Shown piece by piece: positions 4,543 to 13,445 of a DNA stretch of 30,458 nucleotides (positions within the stretch are counted from its first letter, which is position 1; each line of letters begins with the position of its first letter). The notes beneath the pieces are model-generated. The model searched no databases, was not told the DNA's origin, and saw only the letters and a program-made list of their open reading frames with translations. This stretch comes from a virus: the IMG/VR virus record IMGVR_UViG_3300047457_000932, positions 1-30,458 of that record; one strand, 5' to 3'. The position numbers and the translations under genes were made by a program.

Positions 4543-4710
4543 TAAAACATCCAGCTACCGATGTTTTCATAATGTCCTCGGGAGCGTCTCCCCTTCAATC
4601 AAGTTGGTTTAGGAGTAATAGGCAGATAACCAGTCTAACTATTGCTCCATCTTGATAACGGTACGCGACTAATAGTCGCCGCTTCCAGCCTAAACCCTAT
4701 TTATACTCGC
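4543..4710 (-). ncRNA. Candidate structured RNA 2 with possible pseudoknot
   Basis: About 170 nt lie between the last gene of the 5521-4728 operon and an intrinsic terminator, with no gene visible. Complementary segments: CCTAAACC 4689-4696 with GGTTTAGG 4606-4613; hairpin GCGACT/AGTCGC 4665-4679; AATAG 4617-4621 with CTATT 4639-4643; GGGAG/CTCCC 4580-4592; AAAACATC/GATGTTTT 4544-4567. CTTGAT 4651-4656 can also pair with ATCAAG 4598-4603, crossing the first helix to give a pseudoknot. A late-promoter-like TATAAATA (- strand, about 4698-4705) sits at its 5' edge, so it may have its own promoter. I recognise no known family (not tmRNA, not RNase P RNA). Confidence 0.55.
4698..4705 (-). promoter_or_regulatory. 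TATAAATA late-promoter-like box
   Basis: TATAAATAGGG reads leftward directly before the GGTTTAGG stem of structured RNA 2. TATAAATA is the T4 late promoter consensus. In an AT-rich phage this can occur by chance, but its position at the RNA's 5' edge is suggestive. Confidence 0.35.
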
Positions 4711-4727
4711 TGGAACGAGTTTCTTTT

Positions 4728-7414: not shown

Positions 7415-7550
7415 TTCCAAAAATTCCAAAAAAGCTTAGGAGTCCCATAGGGGAGGTATGACACCCCTTATAAGTATTCAAAAAAACTAACGGGTCCCCT
7501 TTTTTGTAAATATTTATATTTTTTAAAAATAAAAAATTGTATATAAGAAT

Positions 7551-7581
7551 GAGCCTCGTAGTAGGCTCCTTTATAAAGGAG
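7551..7581 (+). promoter_or_regulatory. Two overlapping 5' UTR hairpins hiding or exposing an SD
   Basis: GAGCCT (7551-7556) pairs with AGGCTC (7563-7568). CTCCTTTATAAAGGAG (7566-7581) is a palindrome whose 3' arm is the SD AAAGGAG of the 7591 gene. The two stems compete for 7566-7568, so hairpin 1 frees the SD and hairpin 2 hides it. Confidence 0.55.
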
Positions 7582-7590
7582 AATTTTTAT

Positions 7591-8457
7591 ATGCCAGTTA
7601 CAATTACACCAGTCCCTGTATCGGGACTTAGCACTTCTTCTGGATCTTTCTTTACAGATACATCAGGTTCAGTAAGCGGTCCATTCTATGTTTTAACACA
7701 GTCAATCAGAGTTCTATATGCTAGAACTCCATCAAACTTCATAACCCCATTACAGGGTCCAAGTTCACTATCAGCTACTTATGCACCTTCAATTGTGGTT
7801 GGAGGAACTGATTTGAACTATATCGTACAAGCTACTGTATCGGTTTCAAAAGTCTTAGCTTCTTATGCTACTTCATCTTATCAGCAACCTCAGAAGTTCA
7901 CTACGCTTCCTGATGCTGACAAGTTTGGGAACACTTATGGAACAACTTCAGGAACAGGTATACTAGGTCCTGCGGGAACTATTATTACTTCTCAACCCTT
8001 TATTTACAGAAGACCTTGGGTTGAGGGAACTGATGCTGAATCTGTAACCACCATCATTGGTACTAACAGAATGTTTATAAACTTCGGAACTGATGGAACA
8101 TTACTAAGCTTTGAGGGTCCTGGTGCTCAAGGTAACTTAGTTGACTTCAAGCAAGGCGTTGATCCAAAGTTTGCTTTAAGCCACATCGGAATCTATGATA
8201 CTCGCAAGAATCCCTACTCATGGGGTCCCGATTATCAGTTGTTTGGTCCATACTCAACAACTCAAGAGAATTTTGTGAACTTCACAAACTTCATGGATAG
8301 CCTTGGAGATGCTATTACTACCTCTAAGCTACTCAAGCCTAATCTCGTACCAACAACAGATGCCACTGGAAGTTTCTTCACTGGAATAACTAATGTTAAT
8401 TCAACGGCATTTACTGGTATCTCTGGTTACGACAAATCAAGACACTCATATACTTGA
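7591..8457 (+). CDS. Unknown probable virion protein (288 aa)
   Basis: I do not recognise this protein. It is 288 residues, rich in Ser, Thr, Gly and Pro, with low charge and no Cys, and looks mainly beta, like phage structural or decoration proteins. It contains FGTDGTLLSFEGPGAQGNLVDF in the middle and repeated 'FFTG/AFTG' turns at the end. The frame begins at 7537, but I choose the ATG at 7591 because AAAGGAG lies 9 nt upstream. Codons appear optimised (many C-ending Phe/Thr) compared with neighbours, and it has the strongest SD on this strand, so high expression is likely. The structured 5' UTR and the pseudoknot region after its stop suggest heavy RNA-level control. Confidence 0.7.
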   Translation: MPVTITPVPVSGLSTSSGSFFTDTSGSVSGPFYVLTQSIRVLYARTPSNFITPLQGPSSLSATYAPSIVVGGTDLNYIVQATVSVSKVLASYATSSYQQPQKFTTLPDADKFGNTYGTTSGTGILGPAGTIITSQPFIYRRPWVEGTDAESVTTIIGTNRMFINFGTDGTLLSFEGPGAQGNLVDFKQGVDPKFALSHIGIYDTRKNPYSWGPDYQLFGPYSTTQENFVNFTNFMDSLGDAITTSKLLKPNLVPTTDATGSFFTGITNVNSTAFTGISGYDKSRHSYT

Positions 8458-8488
8458 TAACTAACTCTTAGGTAACTAAGAAATAAAT

Positions 8489-8515
8489 GAGGCCCTAGAT
8501 TAACTCTAGGGCCTC
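8489..8515. terminator. 11-bp perfect hairpin after the 7591-8457 gene
   Basis: GAGGCCCTAGA/TCTAGGGCCTC has a 5-nt loop. The + side lacks a U-tract; the - side is followed by ATTTATTTC. It may be a bidirectional terminator. Its right arm (8511-8515) also can pair with 8597-8601, so it competes with the pseudoknot's outer stem. Confidence 0.6.
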
Positions 8516-8601
8516 TGTGGTATCAGGATCACCTCCTTCGACTCGGCGGGTAACGGATTATTTTGTGAAATTAGATACCACGAAGAACCCGCCAGAGAGG
8601 C
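8511..8601 (+). ncRNA. Candidate pseudoknot RNA displaying a 16S anti-Shine-Dalgarno sequence
   Basis: GGATCACCTCCTT at 8526-8538 exactly matches the conserved 3' end of bacterial 16S rRNA. It lies between two helices that cross: GTGGTATC 8517-8524 with GATACCAC 8574-8581 (8 bp) and GGCGGGT 8545-8551 with ACCCGCC 8587-8593 (7 bp). An outer stem GCCTCT 8511-8516 with AGAGGC 8596-8601 can close the whole. The anti-SD would be single-stranded in loop 1. Strand is the main doubt: on the - strand it would be a perfect extended SD, AAGGAGGTGATCC, but no start codon or reading frame follows it. It lies 53 nt after the 7591-8457 gene and may be processed from that mRNA. Confidence 0.5.
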
Positions 8602-8705
8602 TAGAACTTGTTTTTATCTTTTTTGTTGTAGGTCAACCAAAAGAAGAACATAATTCCTAGCCAACAAGTGCTAACTATCCAAACTGTTGCGAGTACAGCT
8701 TGCAT
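8601..8705 (-). CDS. 34-residue transmembrane microprotein
   Basis: This short frame starts 4 nt after the stop of the 8710-8898 gene. The product has one strong hydrophobic helix (residues 3-25, with Trp and Phe clusters) followed by a Lys-rich tail NKKDKNKF, the charge pattern of a single-pass N-out membrane peptide. The SD is weak, but tight coupling to the upstream gene could suffice. Possible roles are a holin/antiholin-like factor or a superinfection protein. Function unknown. Confidence 0.5.
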   Translation of the reverse strand: MQAVLATVWIVSTCWLGIMFFFWLTYNKKDKNKF

Positions 8706-8709
8706 TTTA

Positions 8710-8898
8710 TCACGCACTCATTAGATCCGAACGCAGTTGCTTGATAAATCTCTCAGCACGCTTTCGGCTCTTTGAGTATATGGCAAGCTCTCTAGGCTCA
8801 CTGTAACGGTTTTGACGATACATCACCATGTAGTAAGTTGCCATACCAGCGCGTTCAGATTCGATCCAGATTTTTTTATTTTTATTTTTGTTTGTCAT
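8710..8898 (-). CDS. Small basic hypothetical protein (62 aa)
   Basis: This 62-residue, strongly basic protein has an N-terminal Lys/Asn run (TNKNKNKK), a Tyr/Met-rich middle (ATYYMVMYRQNRYSEPRELAIYSKS) and an Arg/Lys helix (RKRAERFIKQLRSD). The SD AAGGAG lies 8 nt before the ATG at 8898, the best SD among the leftward genes in this block. A TATGAT box about 20 nt upstream could be its -10. The 'YSKSRKRAERFIKQL' pattern is like small phage proteins with a strand-helix fold. Function unknown; nucleic-acid binding would fit the charge. Confidence 0.65.
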   Translation of the reverse strand: MTNKNKNKKIWIESERAGMATYYMVMYRQNRYSEPRELAIYSKSRKRAERFIKQLRSDLMSA

Positions 8899-9028
8899 AG
8901 GGATATCTCCTTGATTTTATCATAGTCCCTTCTCGGAAAAATCTACATACTTCTGAGGTTTTTTATGTGGACTAGTAAAAATTATATGTTACGCCCGATA
9001 GCTCACTGCTGAAGGGGAAGATGTATAT

Positions 9029-9058: not shown

Positions 9059-9430
9059 TCATTCTTCTGTTTCTTCTGCTTTTTTATTACAACCGCCACA
9101 CTTACCTTGGCGTTGTTCCTTGCACTCAAGCTTCGACAGGATAGCTCCAATGATAACTGTGGTTGCTGAAGCTAGGACTCCGTTTGTTATTAGATAACCT
9201 GTAATTGGAATCGCTCCCATGGAGTAAGGAATAAGAATACCTAGCCAGAAAGAAGTACACATCTGGCAAGTAATTAAAAACCATCCCCACTTACAAAAAA
9301 AGTTAGTATGGAATCTCTTAGCTAAGAAAGTTCTTAGGGGTTCAAAGATTGTTGATTGAGCTAGAAGCATACTAGCACCAAAAATAACTAACGCTGAAAT
9401 AACAAAACTTAAAAAAATACTTTCTATCAT
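9059..9430 (-). CDS. DUF1360-like small membrane protein
   Basis: This 123-residue membrane protein has an N-terminal transmembrane helix (about residues 5-25), a loop with FFCKWGWFLITCQMCTSFWLGI, then two more hydrophobic segments. The motif CxMCxSFWxG resembles the DUF1360 family found in many phages and in Bacillus. The tail has a second Cys set (LECKEQRQGKCGGCNK), so a metal site at the cytoplasmic face is possible. It lies 6 bp after the glycosyltransferase gene in one operon. It may serve lysis or surface modification; neither is proven. Confidence 0.6.
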   Translation of the reverse strand: MIESIFLSFVISALVIFGASMLLAQSTIFEPLRTFLAKRFHTNFFCKWGWFLITCQMCTSFWLGILIPYSMGAIPITGYLITNGVLASATTVIIGAILSKLECKEQRQGKCGGCNKKAEETEE

Positions 9431-9436
9431 ATTAAA

Positions 9437-10129
9437 TTAATCCTCTTTTAAGATTATAGGTAAGGTATTATGTTTTATAAACGCTTCCCTGTTCTTGTGC
9501 CAAGAGTCCCTACCCACTAGTTGCCCACTTGAGTGATGCACCATGGTAATAGGCACTGCTCTGTTGACCATTCCTGCCTTTAAAGCTGAAGAAGTATAGT
9601 GAATATCATAAAAATCCCACTTTCCTTCAAAAATTTCTGGCTTCTCTAAGCTTATTTTTCTTAAATTTCCTGCTTTAGCAGCTAAAAATAGTCCGTCCAA
9701 TACGGCTACATTGCCAAAAGGACCATAATATGTAGGGTAAGGCTTTCCATCTGGGTTAATATGCACTACTAACCCTTTATGATACCCTTGTTCTTGCCTC
9801 TTCCAGTCCCACCAGACGGCATCTTTGCCTAAATTAGTGGTTCCTGCTGGTCCAATAAAACAAACTTTAGGATTTTCTAGCTCAGTTTTAAGAATTTTTT
9901 CGAAATCAGAGTTTTTTAAAGAGATTTCGATGTCATCGTGACAAAATATACAAATATCATCATCATTAGGCTTCACTTTTTCAAAGGCTGCGGCATAGGC
10001 TTTAAAAATTGATGATTGATTTACTAATAAGTGGACTATAATCTTACTATTAGTATAATAAGTAAGTAGTTTAGTAGTTACACTACTTATATCTTTACTT
10101 CTAGTACATATAAAAGCATATATATTCAT
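9437..10129 (-). CDS. GT-A-type glycosyltransferase-like protein (StrF/Glyco_tranf_2_5 type)
   Basis: This 230-residue protein looks like the StrF-type glycosyltransferase family (PF13712). It begins with a beta-strand Rossmann start (YAFICTRSKD). The acidic motif IFCHDDIEI (D65-D66) would bind the nucleotide-sugar metal. FEGKWDFYDIHYTSSALKAG near residue 168 and the C-terminal VHHSSGQLVGRDSW follow, as expected for the family. It could glycosylate phage DNA, a virion protein or a host surface glycan. No SD is seen. TATTAT ends 6 nt before the ATG at 10129, so a leaderless start is again possible. The gene diverges from the terminase across 32 bp. Confidence 0.7.
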   Translation of the reverse strand: MNIYAFICTRSKDISSVTTKLLTYYTNSKIIVHLLVNQSSIFKAYAAAFEKVKPNDDDICIFCHDDIEISLKNSDFEKILKTELENPKVCFIGPAGTTNLGKDAVWWDWKRQEQGYHKGLVVHINPDGKPYPTYYGPFGNVAVLDGLFLAAKAGNLRKISLEKPEIFEGKWDFYDIHYTSSALKAGMVNRAVPITMVHHSSGQLVGRDSWHKNREAFIKHNTLPIILKED

Positions 10130-10161: not shown

Positions 10162-11688
10162 ATGGAAAAAGCGGAATTAGCTGCCGAGTTTAAATTATGT
10201 AAAGAAAACCCAGTATATTTTATTTCTAAATATGTTAAGGTTGTTCACCCTGTTCGTGGCTTAGTTCCATTTAAACTTTATCCATTCCAAGAAAAAATCT
10301 TAAAAGATCTAGAAGCTCACAGATTTAATATTCTCCGTAAGTTTCGTCAGGCAGGATGTACAACGATTGCTGCTGCTTATTCTCTCTGGTTTATTATATT
10401 TAACAAACATAAATCAGTTGTAATCTTGTCTAGAGGGGATGCTGAATCAACTGAGGTTTTAGATAGAATAAAAGTTATGTACGATGAGCTTCCAGCATTT
10501 CTTAAGCCTGGAATTATTGAGGATAACAAACACACTTTTAAGTTAGCTACTAACTCTACGATAAAATCTAGGCCATCAGGCAAGCAATCAGGTCGTTCAC
10601 TAGCTGGTTCTTTGCTTATAATCGACGAGGCTGCGTTCATTGAGAACATTGATACCATTTGGGCTGCTGTATACCCGATTATTTCTACAGGTGGTAGAGC
10701 GTTCGTTCTTTCAACTGTTAATGGTGTGGGTAATTGGTATCACGATGTTTACAGCAAGGCTATAAACAAAGAAAATTCTTTCAATCCAATAGATATTCGT
10801 TGGCAAGACCACCCCGAATATAAACGCCATGATGGATTTGATTGGCTTTATAAAGAAATGGAAGAGAAGGGGTTGGATGTTGATAAATGGGAAAAGACTA
10901 CCCGAGCTAATATGCCTATGCGTCAATGGATGCAGGAATATGAAGGGGCTTTCCTTGGAACGGGCGAGACTTTTATTGCTGGAGAAATTTTAACTAGAAT
11001 TAATTCTCAGACGGCAACTAATTATATTCAGAAATATGAAAATAAAATGAGAGTTTTCCAAGAACCTCAACCTTATTATACTTATATTCTAGGTTGCGAC
11101 ACTTCTTTGGGGGGAAATCGAGATTATTCTGCCTTTCATATAATTAATTGTTATAATGGGCAGCAAGTTGCAGAATTTTATTCGAATAATACGCCAATAA
11201 ACGAGTTTGCATCAATTATAGCTACTGAAGCAAGTATATATAATATGGCTTATGTTTTGCCCGAACGAAATACGATTGGAAATAACTTAATAGACTGGCT
11301 TTTTAATGTTTTGGAATACGAAAACCTATGGTCTGATGAACGAGGTAAGTTTGGATTTCAATTAACATCTCAAAATAGAGAACAACTGCTTGCACTTCTA
11401 GAAGAGGCTATTCGAACTGACATGATTAAGATTAATTCAACAAGAACTTGTGACGAATTATTAACTTTCATCGTAAATGAATCGGGAAAAGCTGTAGCAG
11501 AAAAAAATAAGAATGATGATTTGGTTATGAGTTTAGCTTTGAGTGTTTATGGATATAAAAATCTTATGGACACACTTCCACGGGATATATTACAAGCAAA
11601 TTCCACGGAAGAGCAAAGAATGCCTATGCCAACTAAAGGAAAAAGCCCTATCATCACTGAGGAAGATTACAAATGGCTGATGAGATAA
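10162..11688 (+). CDS. Terminase large subunit (gp17-like packaging ATPase/nuclease)
   Basis: This 508-residue protein is the DNA-packaging motor. The N-terminal ATPase has RKFRQAGCTT (about residues 59-68, the T4-type Walker A), LLIIDEAAF (151-159, Walker B with catalytic Glu) and STVNG (184-188, coupling motif). The C-terminal RNase H-like nuclease has GCDTSLGG (D313), PERN (about 368) and KNDDLVMSLAL (about 453). T4 gp17 is 610 residues, so this version is compact. No SD precedes the ATG; the short leader is AT only. The small terminase subunit is not visible next to it. The gene overlaps the portal gene by 16 bp. Confidence 0.95.
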   Translation: MEKAELAAEFKLCKENPVYFISKYVKVVHPVRGLVPFKLYPFQEKILKDLEAHRFNILRKFRQAGCTTIAAAYSLWFIIFNKHKSVVILSRGDAESTEVLDRIKVMYDELPAFLKPGIIEDNKHTFKLATNSTIKSRPSGKQSGRSLAGSLLIIDEAAFIENIDTIWAAVYPIISTGGRAFVLSTVNGVGNWYHDVYSKAINKENSFNPIDIRWQDHPEYKRHDGFDWLYKEMEEKGLDVDKWEKTTRANMPMRQWMQEYEGAFLGTGETFIAGEILTRINSQTATNYIQKYENKMRVFQEPQPYYTYILGCDTSLGGNRDYSAFHIINCYNGQQVAEFYSNNTPINEFASIIATEASIYNMAYVLPERNTIGNNLIDWLFNVLEYENLWSDERGKFGFQLTSQNREQLLALLEEAIRTDMIKINSTRTCDELLTFIVNESGKAVAEKNKNDDLVMSLALSVYGYKNLMDTLPRDILQANSTEEQRMPMPTKGKSPIITEEDYKWLMR

Positions 11689-13445
11689 AAAATAAAATAA
11701 ATGAAGGCTACACTGAGTTTGGAAATGTAACTCAGCCTGAATTCTATTACCCAACAGGGCCTATCGGTCGTTTTTTTGCTAAATTTTTTGCTAGAAAAGC
11801 TGTAATTCCTCTTCAAAAAGAGTTAGAGGGCAAATCTGGCGATACCATCATTAATGCTGATGTAATTAAGACTGGGGAGCCTACAGACAGTCCCGCAGGA
11901 TCAATTCTTGTTAATAGAACTCCTCTAATACCTCAACTTGAGCTAAATCGTAAAAGAAGATATAAAGAGTATGAGGAGATGGATGGGTATCCAGAGATTT
12001 GCGCTGCGTTTGATATTTATGCAGATGACAGCACTCAAAAAAATAGCCGTAATGATGAGTGGTTAGTAAAATCTAGCAGTCAAGATATAGTTGAAGAAAT
12101 AAATGATCTATTCACTAAGATTGCATTAGATCGTCTTCTTTGGGACATAACAAGAAACACTGTTAAGTATGGGGACTGCTTCGCTGAAATAGTTATTGAT
12201 GTGAACAAGCCTGAACAAGGTGTTCGCAAAATTAAGATACTTAATCCTGGGTATATCTTACGAGTTGAAGATGAATACGGTTACCTAAAGGAATTTTTAC
12301 AAGAGGTTCCAGACAGGATTAGCTTAGAATCAATCGGATCTAATATGTATGGTGGAAATAAACCATCTCAATACATAAAATTAGATAAGAATCAAATTCT
12401 TCACTTCAGACTTCACACATCAGATCCAGCGTTCTATCCTTACGGAAAATCTATAGCTGCTTCTTGCCATCGTACATTCAAATCTCTGCGTATGATGGAA
12501 GATGCAATGATGATTTATAGATTGTCTCGCGCACCAGAGAGACGCATATTCTACATTGATACAGGAAATCTTCCTACACAGAAAGCCGAACTTTTTGTTG
12601 AAAGAGTAAAAGAAAAACTCAAGAAAGAGAAGTTTTATAACACAGTTGCCAATACAGTAGATGCTCGTTACAACCCAATGAGCGTTGATGAGGATTACTT
12701 CGTTGCAACTCGTAATGGAGCAGGAACAAAAATTGATACTCTTAAAGGTGCAGAGAACCTTGGAGAAGTTGACGATGTAAAATACTTTAGAGATAAACTC
12801 CTAGCATCATTAAAAATCCCTAAAGATTATATTGTTGAGTTTGATAAATCTCCAGAAAGAAAAGCTAACTTAGCACAATTAGATGTTAAGTTTGCAAGAG
12901 TAATCATTCGTGTTCAGAAAAACATTGAAGTTGGATTAGAAAATTTAGCTAAACGCCACCTTCAATTAAAAAAATATCCCCCAAGCTTAATTAAAGAACT
13001 TAAAATTAAGTTACCTGATCCTTCTGATATGTTTGCAAAGCGTAAGTTGGATCTTGATGAGCAAAAGACAAGAGTAATTCAAGCTGTAAAGGGATTACAA
13101 ATGTTATCTCAAAAGAGGTTATACAAAGAATATTTTGATATGACTGATTTAGAGATAGAGCAAGTTATGGGAGAGCTAGAAGAAGAGCAAGCACAGGCTT
13201 CAGAAGCTCAAGCGGAGGCCATGCAGACCACTCAACCTATGGCTGGGCCTGGGTATGGTGAGGCAGGGGGTCAAGAAGGGGCTGAAAACGCTCCTCCCAC
13301 AGCCCCTTCCCCAGGACAACAGCCCCCAGTTCAAGAAAGTTTAAGTAAATTATCTTCTATTTTAGATATTTCGGGAAATGATAAGCTAATTTTGGAAAGA
13401 ATTATAGCTAAACAATCCAATAAACTTAAAAATTGTCAAAAATAA
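11673..13445 (+). CDS. Portal vertex protein (gp20-like)
   Basis: This 590-residue protein matches T4 gp20-type portals: RKRRYKEYEEMDGYPEICAAFDIYADDST (about residues 90-118), YGDCFAEIVID, IKILNPGYILRVEDEYG, FYPYGKSIAASCHRTFKSLRMMEDAMMIYRLSRAPERRIFYID, and a distal helical domain. It forms the 12-subunit ring for DNA entry and docking of the terminase. The C-terminal 90 residues (Gln/Ala/Pro/Gly-rich, 'PPTAPSPGQQPPVQ') form a low-complexity extension beyond the usual fold (T4 gp20 is 524). Its start lies inside the terminase gene (16-bp overlap), so expression is coupled. Confidence 0.93.
   Translation: MADEIKNKINEGYTEFGNVTQPEFYYPTGPIGRFFAKFFARKAVIPLQKELEGKSGDTIINADVIKTGEPTDSPAGSILVNRTPLIPQLELNRKRRYKEYEEMDGYPEICAAFDIYADDSTQKNSRNDEWLVKSSSQDIVEEINDLFTKIALDRLLWDITRNTVKYGDCFAEIVIDVNKPEQGVRKIKILNPGYILRVEDEYGYLKEFLQEVPDRISLESIGSNMYGGNKPSQYIKLDKNQILHFRLHTSDPAFYPYGKSIAASCHRTFKSLRMMEDAMMIYRLSRAPERRIFYIDTGNLPTQKAELFVERVKEKLKKEKFYNTVANTVDARYNPMSVDEDYFVATRNGAGTKIDTLKGAENLGEVDDVKYFRDKLLASLKIPKDYIVEFDKSPERKANLAQLDVKFARVIIRVQKNIEVGLENLAKRHLQLKKYPPSLIKELKIKLPDPSDMFAKRKLDLDEQKTRVIQAVKGLQMLSQKRLYKEYFDMTDLEIEQVMGELEEEQAQASEAQAEAMQTTQPMAGPGYGEAGGQEGAENAPPTAPSPGQQPPVQESLSKLSSILDISGNDKLILERIIAKQSNKLKNCQK

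Follow-up and report, generated by a model that had tools for sequence, protein, structure and literature searches.

A small operon in a T4-like phage fragment ends in a noncoding RNA that measures about 115 nt with its terminator; it would form the 3' end of the cassette's mRNA and might also be released as a small RNA. It is predicted to fold as an H-type pseudoknot whose third loop presents GGAGGUGAUCC (13 nt in the sequence analysed here, AAGGAGGUGAUCC), a perfect extended Shine-Dalgarno (SD) sequence without a start codon. We put at about 50% the probability of a ribosome-binding function for this RNA, and likewise of its being a phage 3'-terminal pseudoknot RNA that holds the 30S subunit via the anti-SD and acts as a ribosome decoy. 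The window referred to throughout is the whole stretch of DNA analysed (30,458 nt; IMG/VR record IMGVR_UViG_3300047457_000932, positions 1-30,458).

Occurrence and conservation of the RNA

The window encodes a terminase (10162-11688), a T4-type portal protein (11673-13445) and a T4 baseplate protein; in the annotated phage collection, even the best terminase matches have only ∼34% of residues in common. A nucleotide-level search with the RNA region returned no relatives from the phage collection, only short chance matches, and no match was found in the bacterial genome collection. Relatives of the RNA were gathered in IMG/VR through terminase relatives and sequence-pattern searches. The RNA is present in nine IMG/VR contigs with three stem-arm types: L007, L009 and L010 carry an RNA identical to that of the window, L011 and L012 have an arm type of their own, and the L016-L018 and L019 types have stem arms in common. 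The sample thus comprises only 3-4 distinct sequences from two close clades.

All contigs that encode a terminase at least 82% identical and reach far enough contain the RNA; those of L008, L013, L014 and L015 stop before the locus and are uninformative on its presence. Among relatives with terminase identity of 71% or less the RNA is absent, and a covariance model search gave nothing convincing, so the RNA appears to be confined to the two close clades. A weak covariance model match in record L031 (17 bits) was rejected, being without the conserved loops or the pseudoknot, and looser IMG/VR patterns returned the same nine contigs together with sequences that lack the rest of the RNA and mostly look protein-coding. 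No tRNAs were found in the window, L118, L010 or L009. The window also contains, between 1087 and 5666, a direct repeat of 38-74 nt in five to six copies that includes CTTGCG...GGGGGCCCC and may represent promoter or terminator modules.

Four-fold degenerate sites of the terminase and glycosyltransferase genes are 38-48% identical between the window and the L016/L011 clades. Between the window and L010, which belongs to the same type, 0 of 116 nt differ in the RNA and terminator, as against 7/108 and 13/189 in the adjoining ORFs, and between L016 and L011 the RNA can be aligned and the peptide ORF cannot. Within its locus, the RNA is therefore more conserved than any other part.

Two crossing stems are maintained by compensatory changes

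In minus-strand order the RNA consists of CUC, a bulged U, GGCGGGU, L1, GUGGUAUC, L2, ACCCGCC plus GAG, L3, GAUACCAC and the terminator (Table 1). Loop lengths on this strand are 5-8 nt for L1, 19-22 nt for L2 and 17-21 nt for L3 across all types, and those of L1 and L3 suit a classical H-type pseudoknot.

Table 1. Features of the RNA and its cassette in the window
Feature	Position	Strand	Sequence or remarks
Promoter-like motif	8918..8926	-	ACTATGATA; upstream of the 62-aa gene; similar AT-rich sites in L010, L011, L016
62-aa protein gene	8710..8898	-	Found in exactly the nine contigs that carry the RNA
Hydrophobic peptide ORF	8601..8717	-	34-38 aa, Lys-rich tail; ends beside the RNA
P1 extension, 5' arm	8595..8597	-	CTC, bulged T at 8594; CTC/GAG in window, CCC/GGG in relatives
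Stem P1, 5' arm	8587..8593	-	GGCGGGT; pairs with 8545-8551; GACAGGT/ACCTGTC in relatives
Stem P2, 5' arm	8574..8581	-	GTGGTATC; crosses P1; GTAGTGTC or GTAGTACC in relatives
Loop L2	8552..8573	-	Contains AAATAATCC, invariant in the relatives' alignment
Stem P1, 3' arm	8545..8551	-	ACCCGCC
P1 extension, 3' arm	8542..8544	-	GAG
Loop L3	8526..8538	-	AAGGAGGTGATCC, 13-nt exact complement of the 16S 3' tail; core GGAGGTGATCC at 8526-8536
Stem P2, 3' arm	8517..8524	-	GATACCAC
Intrinsic terminator	8489..8515	-	11-bp stem, then ATTTATTT

A sequence-only reading of this DNA had noted two crossing perfect stems, of 8 and 7 bp, and suggested that relatives be examined for covariation. Both stems are confirmed and covariation is present, with the pairing kept by compensatory change in two diverged clades. 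The arms of the other types are GACAGGU/ACCUGUC and CCC/GGG, with GUAGUGUC/GACACUAC or GUAGUACC/GGUACUAC in P2. All 28 pairs of the crossing stems and the terminator form in each of the three arm types (100%); eight of the 28 are changed on both sides and none is broken. None of 500 shuffles equalled the real pairing, and controls in which the arms were slid paired at 33-47%; because the arms were chosen by hand, slid controls are expected to lose, and it is the compensatory changes that constitute real evidence. On an unguided MAFFT alignment P1 was again 100% paired, with three two-sided changes. Stems held by compensatory changes are what a structured noncoding RNA would display.

The same reading had proposed a possible 6-bp outer stem (8511-8516/8596-8601). 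It could form in the window, where 8511-8520 and 8592-8601 are 90% complementary, but it shares positions with the terminator, and relatives can form only part of it. What is conserved as an extension of the 7-bp stem is 8542-8544/8595-8597, beyond the bulged base.

HDV-like ribozymes have the same order of P1 (7 bp, beginning with G after U), P2, P1' and P2', and minimal forms of them are known in phages (PMC10879173); a pistol ribozyme also occurs in the same phage. It is nevertheless improbable that the RNA is a small ribozyme, of the HDV-like or a new kind, cleaving itself just past the peptide gene. No HDV family covariance model matched the window region or L016 up to E = 10, for L2 no P3 is predicted in any type (0.0 kcal/mol), the covarying P1 extension spans the would-be cut site, and HDV ribozymes have no counterpart of the invariant GGAGGUGAUCC. 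As to the catalytic C expected in J4/2, a junction definable only with P3/P4, every type has C residues ahead of P2'. The pistol model (RF02679) found no match at this RNA element; its match in the window lies at 4659-4720 on the minus strand (56.9 bits), and the relative L004 has one at 7786-7848 on the plus strand.

The RNA is most probably read from the minus strand

The RNA always lies ∼9-13 nt past the stop codon of a small minus-strand peptide gene and is followed at once by the terminator hairpin. On the minus strand the run after the hairpin is U7-8 in L011, L016 and L019, AUUUAUUU in the window and AUUUUUAAG in L009; the plus side of the hairpin has no T run, and no plus-strand terminator was found near the RNA in L016. 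Because the terminator and the conserved operon are on the minus strand, and the plus-strand gene is not conserved there, we place the RNA on the minus strand with high confidence.

The sequence-only reading had taken the opposite strand, envisaging an RNA that displays an anti-SD and binds the SDs of mRNAs. A real, selected, pseudoknotted RNA tied to the 16S tail is what it described, but the strand was wrong and with it the logic. The stems would form equally on the plus strand, all changes being Watson-Crick to Watson-Crick, and a plus-strand gene lies upstream in the window. This gene (7537-8457), offered as the context of the RNA, is however absent there in L009 and L010 and is therefore outside the RNA's unit, while the minus-strand operon and terminator are conserved; combined with the lack of plus-side termination signals, this leaves the plus-strand version very improbable. 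Coding on the plus strand was rejected as well, since the ORF across the RNA is not kept between clades. The region to the left of the RNA (7499-8484) is variable, its 306-aa plus-strand gene being missing or replaced in L009 and L010. Read from the minus strand, the supposed anti-SD becomes an SD, which would bind ribosomes rather than mRNAs.

The position of the terminator, which in the window begins 1 nt past P2, also raises the possibility of a cis-acting attenuator or riboswitch, with the pseudoknot as a sensor of a ligand, or of free 30S via the SD, that sets stop versus read-through at the terminator. The outer stem would compete with the first arm of the terminator, L009 has a minus-strand ORF shortly beyond it, and aptamers typically have conserved unpaired loops. 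Yet the downstream genes differ among L009, L010, L011 and L016, in the window their place is taken by a converging gene, the other clade can form only part of the outer stem, and no Rfam riboswitch matched, so that we regard such regulation as unlikely.

The third loop is an exact complement of the free 16S rRNA tail

The reported exact match to the 16S tail, GGATCACCTCCTT at 8526-8538 (+), is borne out and is the sole exact copy on either strand of the window; within two mismatches a single other site occurs, at 8153-8165. The quoted chance of about 1 in 1000 windows is right (2 x 30458/4^13, or ∼0.0009 expected). Conservation narrows the match to an 11-nt core, GGATCACCTCC on the plus strand, that is invariant in all relatives, the final TT (AA on the minus strand) being variable; its minus-strand form, GGAGGUGAUCC, is the complement of the free 16S tail. 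The partner of the core we take to be E. coli 16S 1529-1539, the single-stranded tail after helix 45. The longest invariant run in the RNA between clades is the 12-nt GGAGGUGAUCCU, of which the first 11 bases complement 16S GGAUCACCUCC and the twelfth has no match to 16S. The 16S partner of that twelfth base would presumably fall inside helix 45; on this assumption the match spans the single-stranded tail and stops where helix 45 starts.

In a scan for duplexes with the 16S tail (60,882 windows of 18 nt, both strands), the L3 site ranked first at -25.3 kcal/mol, followed by a site at -19.4 kcal/mol; the best gene SDs reach ∼-9 kcal/mol, a value obtained with a slightly shorter 16S tail. The match had been proposed to be displayed single-stranded. 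It does sit in L3, but with P1 and P2 formed roughly half of this loop is predicted to pair, forming weak hairpins of ∼-3 kcal/mol that differ between clades, and free display is not assured. Pairing with 16S (-21.9 to -24.1 kcal/mol) would outweigh these hairpins. A conserved L3 hairpin was ruled out, the two clades using different pairings, and an L2-L3 helix (AUCAA/UUGAU) is possible in one clade only. Since the hairpins differ, it is the sequence of L3 that is conserved and not a hairpin, as expected of a loop that pairs with another molecule.

That the opposite strand carries a perfect extended SD lacking a start codon holds true for AAGGAGGUGAUCC: none is found at a usable distance (about 5-10 nt) in any type, and the terminator follows at once. 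Although the sequence is both a perfect SD and a perfect complement of the 16S tail, the ordinary SD of a minus-strand gene, which the sequence-only reading had raised as a test of its proposal, is therefore hardly credible. The same grading applies to a fragment of a 16S gene, as the base beside GGATCACC differs from the 16S gene in all types (AGGATCACC, not TGGATCACC).

Another possibility is that the RNA is a structured 3' end serving to protect the mRNA of the cassette, or has a protein-binding role, and that its match to 16S is coincidental. A pseudoknot directly before a terminator at an operon end would fit a stabiliser, and the invariant run, seen in 3-4 sequence types only, may serve another purpose. 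Against this, the chance of an 11-mer match at a given place is 4^-11, the match falls exactly on the invariant run, and a plain stabiliser needs no invariant loops; we consider this explanation rather unlikely. Pairing with 16S does not explain the second conserved loop, AAAUAAUCC in L2.

The RNA belongs to a two-gene cassette

The minus-strand operon is ordered 62-aa protein, 34-aa membrane peptide, RNA and intrinsic terminator. Relatives carry peptides of similar character (33-38 aa) at the same place, which cannot always be aligned. The 62-aa protein (62-77 aa in relatives) is predicted by AlphaFold to adopt a beta-beta-beta-alpha arrangement (mean pLDDT 80), and a fold search with the family gave no confident match. 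The case for ACTATGATA as a promoter is weak, the count of promoter-like motifs in the window not being significant. Further upstream on the minus strand are a DUF1360-like gene and a glycosyltransferase gene. This region (9059-10129) is conserved opposite the terminase in many such phages, the glycosyltransferase (PF13712) more widely than the DUF1360-like membrane protein.

The segment 8485-8927, comprising the motif, both genes, the RNA and the terminator, is 97% identical to L005 (the contig of L009), compared with 75% over the 6 kb beyond the cassette. Homology with L009 stops just upstream of the promoter-like motif at 8926, and similarity to L010 extends to ∼9052 (92%). Overall, the block is 92-97% identical between phages whose neighbouring terminase regions are 75-76% identical. 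It looks as though the cassette is exchanged as a unit between related phages, like a 'moron', with the RNA family travelling along with the two genes.

A possible ribosome decoy

The most likely role we see for L3 is pairing with the single-stranded 3' tail of 16S rRNA, by which the RNA would hold 30S subunits without a translation start; the outcome would be a ribosome decoy during infection or, less likely, an anchor for the RNA's own mRNA. From these features we infer accumulation of the RNA, 30S binding and competition for initiation. An 11-nt invariant core gives the RNA conserved exact complementarity to an accessible 16S site, as a decoy would have. We favour a decoy over an anchor because nothing translatable follows. 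Counting against a decoy, bulk inhibition of ribosomes would need many copies of the RNA, and SDs are used by other genes of the phage, the cassette's 62-aa gene among them.

A more specific version, in which the RNA blocks the host anti-SD late in infection and lowers SD-dependent host initiation while SD-less, perhaps leaderless, phage late mRNAs are still translated, is unlikely, given that other genes of the phage do have SDs. In the window, the terminase gene, the 559-aa and 1820-aa late genes and the glycosyltransferase gene are without an SD. If true, such a block would be a translational takeover by RNA instead of protein. Several of these genes have AT-rich promoter-like sequence close to their starts. 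Such sequence (e.g., ACTATNATA) stands a few bases before the start codon, with no SD, at 10129, 10162, 13461, 23510 and 23547, and the genes concerned perhaps give rise to short-leader or leaderless late mRNAs.

Comparison with known systems

No Rfam family matched the RNA above the gathering threshold, and a literature search, mainly outside subscription papers, brought up no phage RNA directed at the anti-SD; in a 2025 review of phage small RNAs, '16S' occurs nowhere (PMC12197685). In line with the earlier remark that no described example was known, neither Rfam nor the collections of phages and bacterial genomes nor the available literature yielded a relative or precedent.

Several systems share single features with the RNA. 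Extended SDs of S. aureus mRNAs likewise pair with the 16S tail beyond the GGAGG core, but they precede a start codon, whereas the phage sequence has none, lies in a pseudoknot loop and is followed by a terminator (PMC13009471). Phage-encoded bS21 is also a phage factor at the anti-SD, but a protein; in other phages its genes lie on the strand opposite to those for terminase, portal and further structural proteins (PMC9723584), much as the RNA does, and no bS21 gene was found in the phage records studied here. A Val-tRNA fragment occupies 30S and blocks initiation, as proposed for the phage RNA, but is reported to bind the decoding site and is unrelated in sequence and source (PMC11009984).

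The Caulobacter SisA family of small RNAs also uses the SD/anti-SD code, with the opposite polarity: these RNAs carry an anti-SD and bind mRNAs, as the sequence-only reading had supposed for the phage RNA (PMC12559287). Phage HDV-like (theta) ribozymes also have two stems that cross with the same strand order; they differ from the RNA, which has no P3, no model match, a covarying P1 extension and an invariant SD loop (PMC10879173). CsrB/GlmY-type decoys work on the same principle, showing a recognition sequence and titrating its reader, but titrate proteins, whereas the proposed target here is 16S rRNA (PMC8058203). We rate the RNA as a family outside the known kinds.

The anti-SD tail is the most general handle on bacterial translation. 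If 30S binding is true, this would be, to our knowledge, the first natural phage RNA aimed at the anti-SD tail itself, and would provide a small testable model for phage redirection of ribosomes and possibly a part for translation control. Even without a ribosome function, it would be a new, strongly selected, covariation-supported family of phage RNA.
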